Of a DNA stretch of 41,231 bases, positions 27,860 to 31,460 are shown one piece after another; position 1 is the first letter of the stretch; the number at the start of each line of letters is the position of its first letter. The stretch covers positions 1-41,231 of the forward strand of contig JAKOPZ010000158.1 in assembly GCA_029778615.1 (NCBI GenBank), in the 5' to 3' direction. A program made the translations under genes and the position numbers. Origin of the DNA: Chloroflexota bacterium. Lineage in GTDB: Bacteria; Chloroflexota; Anaerolineae; UBA4142; SHND01. The notes beneath the pieces are model-generated. The model was not told the origin of the DNA. It saw only the letters and a list, made by a program, of their open reading frames with translations, and did no database searches.

Positions 27860-28179
27860 TGCGCGCACAAGTTGGAACCGCTCATGCTTCAAGAATTGAC
27901 TCCCGAGCAGCTGCGGCGGGGGCGGGCATGACGGTTGCATTCGCGCGTGCGAATCTTTTGACAATTCTTGTCGCGGATGAACCGAAACGGAATCTCGAAT
28001 CCAATAAAACACACATTACTTTTCAACCTACTGATACGACAAAACCGCTCGTCCACACCACACTTTACTTTTGGCGCGTGCGCGCGTGCAACGATATGGG
28101 TTGCAACGATTGGACACCATATTGGAAATTTCAAATCGGTGCATTTGGTAACACACCAGATAAACTCTTGGAGGAGTGA
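27859..28179 (+). pseudogene. Remnant of a fibronectin-III-like C-terminal domain
   Basis: The frame gives 106 residues, but only the last 35 or so look like protein: 'TTLYFWRVRACNDMGCNDW' resembles the last strands of a fibronectin-type domain. A similar segment, GKYYWRVKACSRVRCIES, ends the protein encoded immediately downstream (28179-30308). There is no signal peptide and the first 60 residues are unlike anything I know. The ATG overlaps the upstream stop, and the stop overlaps the downstream start (TGATG). It is most likely what is left of a deleted secreted protein gene of the same family, although coupled translation is possible. Confidence 0.5.
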
Positions 28180-30308
28180 TGAAAACAAAAATCGCACGGC
28201 ACTCAATTACTCTGACGAGTCTTGTGTTTGCGCTTGCAATCGCGATGGGGTTGGGGCAACCTTTGGCGCTTCATGCCGCGACCATCAATGTCGGTTGTGA
28301 CGTGACCGAACTCATCAATGTGCTTGATAACGCAAACGCGAATGCGGACGCGGATACGTTGGAACTCGCGGCGAACTGCGTCTACACGTTGACGCAAGTG
28401 AACAACATTGACACCACACTCGGACCGAACGGCTTGCCCGTTATCACGAGCGAAATCATCATCAACGGCAATGGCGCAACCATTGCGCGCGACGCAAGTG
28501 CACCGCAGTTTCGATTATTTCAAATCAATGCAGGTGCTGTCGTCACTTTCAATCAAGTGACGCTTACCGGCGGCGACCCGGGCTTTAACACCGATGGAGA
28601 TGGCTTGGATGGCGGCGCGATTCACAACAGTGGCACGTGTAATTTGAACGACACGACGATTCATCGCAATCACGCGGGCGACGGGCGAGCGGCAGACCCC
28701 TTTGGCACTCTGGCGGGAGATGGCGGGCGCGGGGGCGGATTGTTCAATAAAGGCACTGCCATATTCAACAACGCAACGGTGAGCCAAAATCGCGCCGGCA
28801 GTGGGAATTGTGCCGACGAGCTCTGTTATGGCAGCACGCGCGGTGGAGATGGCGGCGGTATCTATAATCTCGGCGCCCTGACGTTGAATCAGAGCAGAGT
28901 TTTGGAAAACACGACGACTGACACAATCGGAAACAGGGGCGGGAGTGGAGTTGGTAGCGGCGGCGGCATCTTTAATCTCGGTACTGTCAGCACAAGTACC
29001 TCCGAATTTTCGGACAATGAAACCGGTAATGGCGGCGGGTACATGTTGGGTGATTTCTGGGGCAACGGCGGAGCCGTGTACAATCAAGGCGAATTCAACA
29101 TCACTTCAAGTTCATTCGCCCGTAACAAAACAGGGGCGAATTTTGGCGCAAGCGGCGATGCAAGTGGCGGCGCAATTTACAACGCCGCGGCAGGGCAATT
29201 GAATGTGAGCGCCAGTCAATTTGTCGAAAACATGACCGGGATTGGCGGCTCCGTATATGAAGGTGTGAATGGCGGCAACGGCGGAGCCATCGCAAACGCG
29301 GGAACACTGTCCGTCGCCGAATGTACATTTGAACAGAATGAAACCGGCATGGGCGGCAGCAATTCGTTTCATGGCGGCGAGGGCGGCAGCGGTGGCGCAA
29401 TCTACAGCGTGGGCGTCCTGCAAGTGTTGGCGAGTACATTTTTCCAAAACAAGAGCGGCAATGGTGGAGGCAGTAGCGACATTGGCGGAAGTGGTGGCAG
29501 CGGCGGTGGGATTTACGCGATGGGCTCTGCGTTGATAACAAATTCCACATTTCATGCCAATCACACCGGCGCGCGCGTGACCGGTCCGGCTGGAAACGGA
29601 AGCGATGGATTTGGCGGCGCGATTCAAAGCGACGGGCAGACAACTCTGGTGAACGTGACCATCAGTGGGAATGCAGGCGGCGCGCATCCCAAATCCGGCA
29701 CCGGCGCGGGGCTGAGTGGAACGTTTACGGTAAAGAACAGCATCATCGCGGACAATTCTCCGGGAAGGAATTGTGTGGGAACCATTACGAATGGCGGCGG
29801 TAATCTCCGATTTCCAAAAACAGATGCCTCGTGCGTGGGAACGTTCGCGAATCCGAAACTCGGCGCGCTGCAAGACAACGGCGGTGCAACGCAAACGATG
29901 TTGCTCGCACCGGACAGTCCTGCCATCAACGCGGCAGTGGACGCAAATTGTCTTGCAACCGACCAACGCGGCGTCGCGCGTCCGCAAGGCAAACGTTGCG
30001 ACATTGGCGCGTTGGAATTAGAGCCGCCGACGCCGCCGGCACTGCGTCAGCCGCGCGCAGGCAGTGTATTGAACAAAGCAACGGTTGAACTCAAATGGCG
30101 CGCGGCGGAACGCGCAGTGGAATATCGCGTGCTCGTGCGCGCCGCTTCGCCCAAAGGGAAAAAAGTGGTCAACCAAAAAATTTCAACCGTGACGTACACG
30201 ACACCCCAACTCGGTAATGGAAAATATTATTGGCGTGTCAAAGCGTGCAGTCGCGTGCGCTGCATCGAATCTCTAACGCGCGATTTTGAAATCAACATCG
30301 CACCGTAA
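28179..30308 (+). CDS. Secreted glycine-rich parallel beta-helix (choice-of-anchor type) protein
   Basis: The 709-residue protein has a signal peptide (hydrophobic stretch to LALHAA). From about residue 90 to 500 it carries many repeats of the form G-G-(A/G)-I-(Y/H/F)-N-x-G-T-(L/V)-x-(V/L)..(S/T)-x-(F/V)..N, typical of polymorphic-outer-membrane-protein or beta-helix folds. A choice-of-anchor-like end follows ('PDSPAINAAVDANCLATDQRGVARPQG', 'DIGALELE'). The last about 95 residues form a fibronectin-III-like domain ending 'YYWRVKACSRVRCIES'. It probably functions as a surface adhesin or wall protein. GGAGG precedes ATG 28179. No lipobox or LPxTG motif is present. Confidence 0.82.
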   Translation: MKTKIARHSITLTSLVFALAIAMGLGQPLALHAATINVGCDVTELINVLDNANANADADTLELAANCVYTLTQVNNIDTTLGPNGLPVITSEIIINGNGATIARDASAPQFRLFQINAGAVVTFNQVTLTGGDPGFNTDGDGLDGGAIHNSGTCNLNDTTIHRNHAGDGRAADPFGTLAGDGGRGGGLFNKGTAIFNNATVSQNRAGSGNCADELCYGSTRGGDGGGIYNLGALTLNQSRVLENTTTDTIGNRGGSGVGSGGGIFNLGTVSTSTSEFSDNETGNGGGYMLGDFWGNGGAVYNQGEFNITSSSFARNKTGANFGASGDASGGAIYNAAAGQLNVSASQFVENMTGIGGSVYEGVNGGNGGAIANAGTLSVAECTFEQNETGMGGSNSFHGGEGGSGGAIYSVGVLQVLASTFFQNKSGNGGGSSDIGGSGGSGGGIYAMGSALITNSTFHANHTGARVTGPAGNGSDGFGGAIQSDGQTTLVNVTISGNAGGAHPKSGTGAGLSGTFTVKNSIIADNSPGRNCVGTITNGGGNLRFPKTDASCVGTFANPKLGALQDNGGATQTMLLAPDSPAINAAVDANCLATDQRGVARPQGKRCDIGALELEPPTPPALRQPRAGSVLNKATVELKWRAAERAVEYRVLVRAASPKGKKVVNQKISTVTYTTPQLGNGKYYWRVKACSRVRCIESLTRDFEINIAP

Positions 30309-30389: not shown

Positions 30390-30396
30390 AATGCTT

Positions 30397-30834
30397 ATGA
30401 AGAGTCTCTTGTCCATTTTCGTGTTGGCGAGTCTGTTTGCGCCGTCGTTCATGATGATGACCGCGTGCGCGCCGAACGAAACGCAGCATGAACTACACAT
30501 GGCGCCCATGTCTGAAATGTCGGCAGAGATTGCTAGCGCGCGCGAACCGATACAGCAAGCGTATCAATTCGCGGTCGCAAACCCAGAACCGTTGAAAAAC
30601 GTTCCGTGCTATTGCGGCTGCGGGACGCTCGGGCATACCAGCAATTACGACTGCTATATCAAGGACGCGCCCACGAACGGCAAAATTGTGTTTGACGAAC
30701 ACGCGCTCGGCTGCACCATCTGCATAGACATCACGCAAGATGTGATGCGGATGACGCGCGCGGGACGCGCGCCGCCCGCCATCCGCGCGGAAATCGTCAA
30801 GATGTACAGTCAATTTGGACCGTCGAACCAGTAA
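30397..30834 (+). CDS. PCYCGC-motif lipoprotein
   Basis: The 145-residue protein has a lipoprotein signal peptide ending MMTAC (lipidated Cys24). At residues 70-76 it has PCYCGCG, followed by Cys86 (YDCY) and a GCTIC pair (Cys106, Cys109), giving six cysteines outside the anchor. This is the PCYCGC family, extracytoplasmic proteins of unknown function whose cysteines probably bind metal ions. I prefer ATG 30397 (AAGGTG 8 nt upstream) over 30391. The next gene, 134 nt downstream, encodes the candidate selenoprotein, so the two may act together at the outer face of the membrane in metal or thiol chemistry. Confidence 0.75.
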   Translation: MKSLLSIFVLASLFAPSFMMMTACAPNETQHELHMAPMSEMSAEIASAREPIQQAYQFAVANPEPLKNVPCYCGCGTLGHTSNYDCYIKDAPTNGKIVFDEHALGCTICIDITQDVMRMTRAGRAPPAIRAEIVKMYSQFGPSNQ

Positions 30835-30968
30835 CGCCACATTCAACGTTCGCGCGGTCATCGGATTCGATGTTGTGTCGCCGCGAGCGTCGCGTACCGG
30901 ATGCTTGCGGCGCATGTTGTACACGTGCGTCGGTTCCCTGTTCCAAAATAGATTTGTGAGGAAAAATC

Positions 30969-31460
30969 ATGTCGGGAAAACCCAGATTCGATTGCGCGCA
31001 TCCTGCGCGCAAAAAGCGCCAACAAAATTCGTCGTGGTTCCTGTTTGTTGGCATCGCGTTAATTGCCGTCGCGCTGCTCGCGTTCATTTGGTTCGCTTTG
31101 ACGCCGCAACGCGCGAGCAGCGGCACCCCCCAGTTGCAAGTGAACACCGAGCGTTTGGATTTTGGCAAACAGATTTTTGAAAAACCCGTGCATGCGAGTT
31201 TCCAAATCAAGAATGTGGGCAGCGGCACCCTCACCCTAAGCGTTCCGCGCTCTGCAACGCTGCTGGAGGGATGCTGACCACCCCAAGTTATCGTCGGTCA
31301 GACGATATTGGGTCCCGGAGAAAGCACAACTATTTCAACCGATTTCACGATGCACCAAGGCATGGGCGGACCACACCTGTTTGAAATTCCGCTCACGACG
31401 AACGACCCCGCGCAGCCGCTCAAAAAATTACTCATTGCGTCGGATTGGCAGCCGAGCTGA
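30969..31460 (+). CDS. Membrane-anchored DUF1573 protein with in-frame UGA: candidate selenoprotein
   Basis: The frame opens at ATG 30969 (GAGG about 7 nt upstream) and runs to a TGA at 31275. It continues in the same frame for 60 more sense codons to the TGA at 31458-31460. Read through, it gives 163 residues: a basic N-terminus, one membrane helix (23-44), and a DUF1573 immunoglobulin-like domain ('LDFGKQIFEKPVHASFQIKNVG', 'GPGESTTI', 'LTTNDPAQPLKK'). The UGA is residue 103 in the context LLEGC-(UGA)-PPQV. From memory, family members carry a Cys-Cys pair before Pro-Pro there, so the UGA stands in a Cys position. A hairpin fitting a bacterial SECIS follows. The reading as Sec is an inference but a strong one; without it this would be a broken gene. 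Confidence 0.8.
31275..31312 (+). promoter_or_regulatory. Candidate bacterial SECIS element
   Basis: Directly after UGA (31275-31277) the sequence folds as CCCAA (31282-31286) with TTGGG (31308-31312), a two-base bulge GU, then TATCGTC (31289-31295) with GACGATA (31301-31307), closed by the loop GGTCA (31296-31300). The first two loop bases are G, and GGUC stands 19-22 nt after the UGA. This is the same spacing and loop as in the E. coli fdhF element as I remember it. Such hairpins bind SelB and direct selenocysteine insertion. Confidence 0.8.

Follow-up and report, generated by a model that had tools for sequence, protein, structure and literature searches.

The window analysed here is a 41,231-nucleotide stretch of DNA from a Chloroflexota bacterium, corresponding to contig C268 of a host assembly of 6.0 Mb in 372 contigs. 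A gene on its forward strand is open throughout except for a UGA at 31275-31277, beyond which the frame can be read directly for 60 further codons to a TGA stop at 31458-31460, as the first-pass annotation had described. That annotation proposed a selenoprotein carrying a Cys-Sec-Pro-Pro motif and followed by a SECIS hairpin, a proposal that receives strong support from comparison across the protein family. The gene, its upstream partner and the elements considered below are as follows, in order along the window.

30391-30834, forward strand: PCYCGC-motif protein (PF13798), Cys form, the upstream partner (Pfam 87.1 bits vs 25)
30958-30962, forward strand: GAGGA, resembling a ribosome-binding site, 6 nt 5′ of the ATG at 30969, by direct reading
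30969-31460, forward strand: selenoprotein gene encoding 163 residues and ending in a TGA stop, with the internal UGA almost certainly read as selenocysteine (Sec); UGA or Cys at this column in 90 homologues
31035-31103, forward strand: membrane segment predicted from the translation, residues 23-45, preceded by basic residues
31122-31457, forward strand: Ig-like (HYDIN/DUF1573-type) domain, residues 52-163, assigned from PF22544 and the predicted fold
31272-31274, forward strand: TGC codon of Cys102, Cys in 93/93 aligned members
31275-31277, forward strand: UGA codon of Sec103 (codon 103)
31282-31312, forward strand: lower stem CCCAA/TTGGG, pairing 31282-31286 with 31308-31312; it folds here and is not kept across the family
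31289-31307, forward strand: SECIS apical stem-loop, pairing 31289-31295 with 31301-31307 (TATCGTC/GACGATA) around the loop GGTCA at 31296-31300; indicated by covariation, loss in Cys forms and codon constraint
31350-31376, forward strand: codons of Met128, Met132 and His136 in an MHxGMxGxH loop, putative Cu(I) ligands with Cys102/Sec103

Homologues were first sought in 99 relatives. Approximately 40 were recovered, the most divergent at 34% identity, and almost all of them contained a single internal TGA; a separate related-locus search of the contig collection returned only two close loci. A profile search was then extended to 396 genomes of the class, and the family members scoring over 100 bits make up a set of 90. 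Column 103 in this set is occupied only by UGA (82/90) or by a Cys codon, TGT or TGC (8/90), and the motif is always G-C-[U/C]-P, which answers the question raised in the first-pass annotation of whether the column would be Sec or Cys in other members. Five further members found elsewhere in the phylum all carry UGA, four of them within GCUP and one within SCUP; within the one Chloroflexota class the family is found in many families. Cys102, Sec/Cys103 and Pro104 are invariant across 93 aligned members, and Gly101, Met128, Met132 and His136 are each present in 92/93, including all eight Cys forms. A sequencing error at the UGA, which had been raised as a possible explanation, is excluded by the presence of UGA at this column in 82 genes of other assemblies and loci.

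The Sec/Cys state requires four changes on the 93-row tree, and well-supported branches force all four. Since the Cys members are nested within Sec clades, Sec seems to have given way to Cys more than once, with at least four origins of Cys on a sequence tree that is midpoint-rooted only. Two genomes each have a Sec form and a Cys form near one another, about 3.4 kb apart at L053 and adjacent at L119. Near-duplicate family loci, L168 (genome G223, contig C1 near 4125400) and L151, occupy opposite ends of a single contig. The frame of the L168 copy is broken 3′ of the SECIS, perhaps as an artefact of assembly at the contig end.

The position of the hairpin, both of its stems, the GGTCA loop and the spacing of GGTC, 19-22 nt past the UGA, are all as first described in the window. 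The SECIS of E. coli fdhF carries GGUC at the same spacing from its UGA, and the window stem-loop likewise lies immediately after the UGA; across the family, however, the element departs from the fdhF type in that its loop is variable, beginning with GGU, AGU or GGG followed by a variable base in the 82 UGA genes, and in that its lower stem is unconserved. The initial description of a textbook SECIS goes further than a single sequence allows, as the fold taken by itself is unremarkable (−16.9 kcal/mol, z −1.58, with 15/200 shuffles equally good). An Rfam search of the window at gathering thresholds returned no match. As the fold of the single sequence is weak, the case for Sec rests on comparison across the family, which raises the hairpin well beyond chance expectation.

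When stem pairing was scored at a fixed register, with two genes shifted by 3 nt, the apical stem was kept in 82/82 UGA genes (5 or 6 of 6 pairs), whereas only 1-3 pairs remained in the eight Cys genes, the hairpin being absent from all eight. In an alignment of 47 distinct sequences, pairing is kept in 98.6% of cells and both-sided changes occur in 35 cells, compared with 11.0 in shuffles. The stem covariation score is 0.401 against 0.226 ± 0.017 for shuffled alignments, with 0/500 shuffles as high and slid registers reaching at most 0.233. Constraint is also visible in the coding sequence: synonymous variation is nil at codons +5, +6, +8 and +9 and only 0.09 bits at +7, where 1.6-1.9 bits would be expected, and returns to near background in the codons 3′ of the stem. 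The residues encoded by the stem covary as sets, reading V-V-G-S-T-T in some members and T-I-G-S-M-V in others, concerted changes of the kind that RNA pairing calls for.

The machinery for Sec insertion is present in the host genome, a point on which the first-pass annotation had asked for a search. A tRNA-Sec (68.4 bits; ARAGORN anticodon tca), selA (579 bits) and selD (364 bits) were identified, together with both ends of selB, the N-terminus of which runs off contig C160 (L014, 3-215) and the C-terminus of which starts contig C144 (L013, 2-739), so the assembly breaks inside selB. The host selD itself contains an in-frame TGA near its N-terminus (L019 around 1533, contig C271), as Sec-type SelD proteins do. 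The Sec trait was considered as a discriminator of the family and rejected; selA occurs widely in the class whether or not the Ig-domain selenoprotein gene is present, and Sec machinery is therefore a requirement rather than a signature. Genomes with the Cys form lack selA more often than those with the Sec form (3/5 vs 5/43, p 0.03, with a contig-end fragment in G065 scored as missing), a weak test given that tRNA-Sec is present in three of those five Cys-form genomes (G001, G018 and G065). Another Cys-form genome, G231, also has tRNA-Sec, and in G325, a single-contig Cys-form genome, neither selA nor tRNA-Sec scored over the cut-off. On this comparative sequence evidence the window protein is almost certainly a selenoprotein, with Sec inserted at the UGA.

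The C-terminal domain passes the PF22544 (HYDIN/VesB Ig-like) cut-off, at 32.5 bits against 25.5, and narrowly misses that of Pfam DUF1573 (PF07610), at 25.8 bits against 26.1; hhalign to ordinary DUF1573 gives 98.9%. A structure predicted from three sequences is a beta sandwich (pLDDT 75) that matches solved HYDIN-type domains, PapD-type chaperones and P. gingivalis 2qsv, with VIA-align Z values of 11.9 to HYDIN 2e6j and 11.8 to 2qsv. The domain had initially been placed on the outer membrane face, a location that the sequence does not bear out: it offers one N-terminal membrane segment only, and the domain is predicted to lie outside the cytoplasmic membrane. Within the model, the loop bearing Cys102 and Sec103 sits between strands 46-49 and 59-63, in the weakest part of the model (pLDDT about 55), and the MHxGM loop sits between strands 68-75 and 83-93. 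Sandwich loops two strands apart tend toward the same end; the two loops could accordingly form one site in the modelled fold. Conservation of Cys102, Sec103, Met128, Met132 and His136 suggests that these residues constitute a candidate Cu(I) site.

The view that no selenoprotein had been described in DUF1573 did not survive a search of the literature, as one such protein, OS_HP2, was reportedly described by Zhang and Gladyshev (2007, 2008). OS_HP2 is a DUF1573 selenoprotein of pfam07610 with a UxC motif (Zhang and Gladyshev, PMC2398784), listed with the motif UGC in reviews (PMC9312934, PMC13188914). Like the window protein, it combines a DUF1573-type domain with a Sec in the loop where ordinary DUF1573 proteins have CGC; in OS_HP2, however, Sec takes the place of the first Cys of that motif, whereas the window motif is G-C-U-P. 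In a profile alignment to ordinary DUF1573 proteins, Cys102 corresponds to the second Cys of CGC and Sec103 to an extra residue, an assignment made less certain by gaps near the motif. The OS_HP2 model (NCBIfam NF041425) matches residues 61-157 of the window protein weakly, with 16.7 bits where 100 are needed to pass the cut-off, and a search of 301 genomes of the phylum found no member over that cut-off. Proteins that share a domain and differ in Sec position are treated as separate subfamilies in a 2026 review, which counts 119 families and subfamilies (PMC13188914) and whose table holds no entry that fits the window protein. The different Sec position in the profile alignment and the low OS_HP2 profile score indicate that the window protein likely belongs to a distinct subfamily of DUF1573-type selenoproteins. 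No description of it was found in the literature searched, which did not extend to subscription papers or database annotation, and the subfamily is for that reason only provisionally regarded as apparently undescribed.

The commonest neighbour of the family is the PCYCGC protein, found at 43/67 family loci and at none of 20 control loci taken from family-bearing genomes. It belongs to a recurrent cassette, common in one Chloroflexota class, in the order PCYCGC protein, CuA-type cupredoxin, NapH-like polyferredoxin, CuA-type cupredoxin-cytochrome c fusion and selenoprotein. Nearly all examples of the two cupredoxins (27/28 and 33/34, respectively) carry CxxxCxxxHxxM, the CuA motif. All four partners are enriched relative to the control loci (loci treated as independent; p 7e-8 to 1e-5). 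A copper ATPase is also enriched near the family (p 4e-4 vs control loci, likewise treated as independent), and multicopper oxidase and HMA genes occur near family loci. At the level of whole genomes, the polyferredoxin co-occurs with the family (20/27 vs 8/73 relatives, p 2e-9, by a hand tally treating relatives as independent), as do COX2 domains (35/37 family genomes vs 13/31 others) and Sco (32/37 vs 13/31), the latter two counts ignoring kinship. Some observations count against a copper link. A COX2 domain was not found in G034 and G097, the genomes of two family members; in the window only the PCYCGC partner adjoins the selenoprotein gene, and a search of the host genome, the assembly of which is incomplete, did not recover the polyferredoxin.

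Several features of the neighbourhood are recorded in their own right. Just upstream of the PCYCGC gene, at 28176-30308 of the window, lies a gene for a 710-residue protein with a choice-of-anchor Q domain (NF041518, 92 bits) and no Pfam match. At four other loci (L134, L140, L146 and L154) the PCYCGC neighbour is itself a selenoprotein, with an in-frame TGA in a HAFGUSICVDIT-type motif of the UxxC form, and a hairpin follows the UGA in each. The upstream partner shares its Pfam family, PF13798, with the known OS_HP4 / CYCXC family (NF041379), to which the UxxC form in these four relatives' loci is also similar; it is a different protein from the window selenoprotein and occurs in the window as a Cys form, scoring 65.8 bits on the OS_HP4 model, below the cut-off of 90. 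In G097 (L037/L074) and G034 (L045/L083) the Sec domain is fused C-terminal to a Met-rich domain.

The first-pass annotation had suggested redox or metal/metalloid chemistry; that suggestion can be narrowed toward copper and CuA by the cassette context and the conserved residues, and a copper/CuA role is the best-supported functional reading. In the proposed mechanism, SelB with Sec-tRNA would decode the UGA as selenocysteine by means of the hairpin 12-30 nt downstream, and the product would be anchored by its single N-terminal membrane helix, displaying the Ig-like domain outside the cell membrane. There, the G-C102-U103-P loop together with Met128, Met132 and His136 would most likely make up a site for Cu(I) binding or copper redox chemistry that serves the cassette's CuA-type copper proteins, either as a chaperone or through a selenol that keeps copper or CuA cysteines reduced. 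A link between the selenoprotein and CuA/copper biology is probable from gene context, and the copper-linked reading as a whole is given a probability of roughly 0.6. That the protein itself binds or hands over Cu(I), as residue conservation and gene context hint, is a tentative proposal at somewhat worse than even odds. More doubtful is a fuller version in which an undescribed subfamily uses Sec itself as copper ligand or as reductant for copper/CuA sites outside the membrane, in a cassette that can hold two selenoproteins, the second being PCYCGC.

The proposed role would be analogous to that of pCuAC and Sco, CuA-linked proteins located outside the membrane whose copper sites consist of Met/His or Cys/His. 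The CuA-linked Met/His copper site of pCuAC follows the motif H(M)X10MX21HXM, with two His (PMC6696091); the window family differs in fold, does not fit this motif and has only one near-invariant His. Sco differs in having a thioredoxin fold and a copper site of two Cys and a His, whereas the window protein has an Ig-like model and no thioredoxin-type Pfam match. A role for the selenoprotein as a Sco replacement was rejected, as Sco co-occurs with the family.

A vicinal Cys-Sec pair could alternatively act as a redox couple, forming a selenenylsulfide within the electron chain of the cassette without stable copper binding, for example as an enzyme outside the membrane that reduces thiols, disulfides or peroxides. 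Redox activity is usual among known selenoproteins (PMC13188914), the cassette with its polyferredoxin, CuA cupredoxin and cytochrome c resembles an electron-transfer chain, and the PCYCGC partner is Cys-rich and at times itself a UxxC selenoprotein; however, this explanation does not account for the conservation of Met128, Met132 and His136 in 92/93 members, nor for the copper ATPase and Met-rich partners, and although not exclusive of a copper role it is considered unlikely. That the selenoprotein confers resistance to mercury, to arsenic or to some other soft metal or metalloid is a good deal less probable: Sec binds soft metals, and vicinal CU motifs are present in the selenoproteins HgcA, SaoL and MbdU (PMC13188914), but no mercury or arsenic gene is prominent among the conserved neighbour clusters, and the neighbours that recur are instead CuA cupredoxins, copper ATPases and proteins of the multicopper oxidase type. 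It is least credible that the gene does not encode a selenoprotein, its UGA being a sequencing error, a pseudogene lesion, an ordinary stop or a codon read through with another amino acid; the non-significant single-sequence fold would fit, but the covarying hairpin that is absent in Cys forms and the Sec machinery of the genome speak against it, and error or pseudogene is already refuted by the 82 genes with UGA at one column and a conserved protein beyond it.

Under the ordinary code such genes would be cut short at the UGA, and the final third of their product would be missed. The loss of the SECIS in every Cys form makes the family a clean natural experiment, and a well-supported subfamily is added to the selenoproteins, one whose fold is of the Ig type and not that of thioredoxin. 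Through its tie to CuA-type proteins, this subfamily connects selenium with the biology of copper sites in a way that can be tested.
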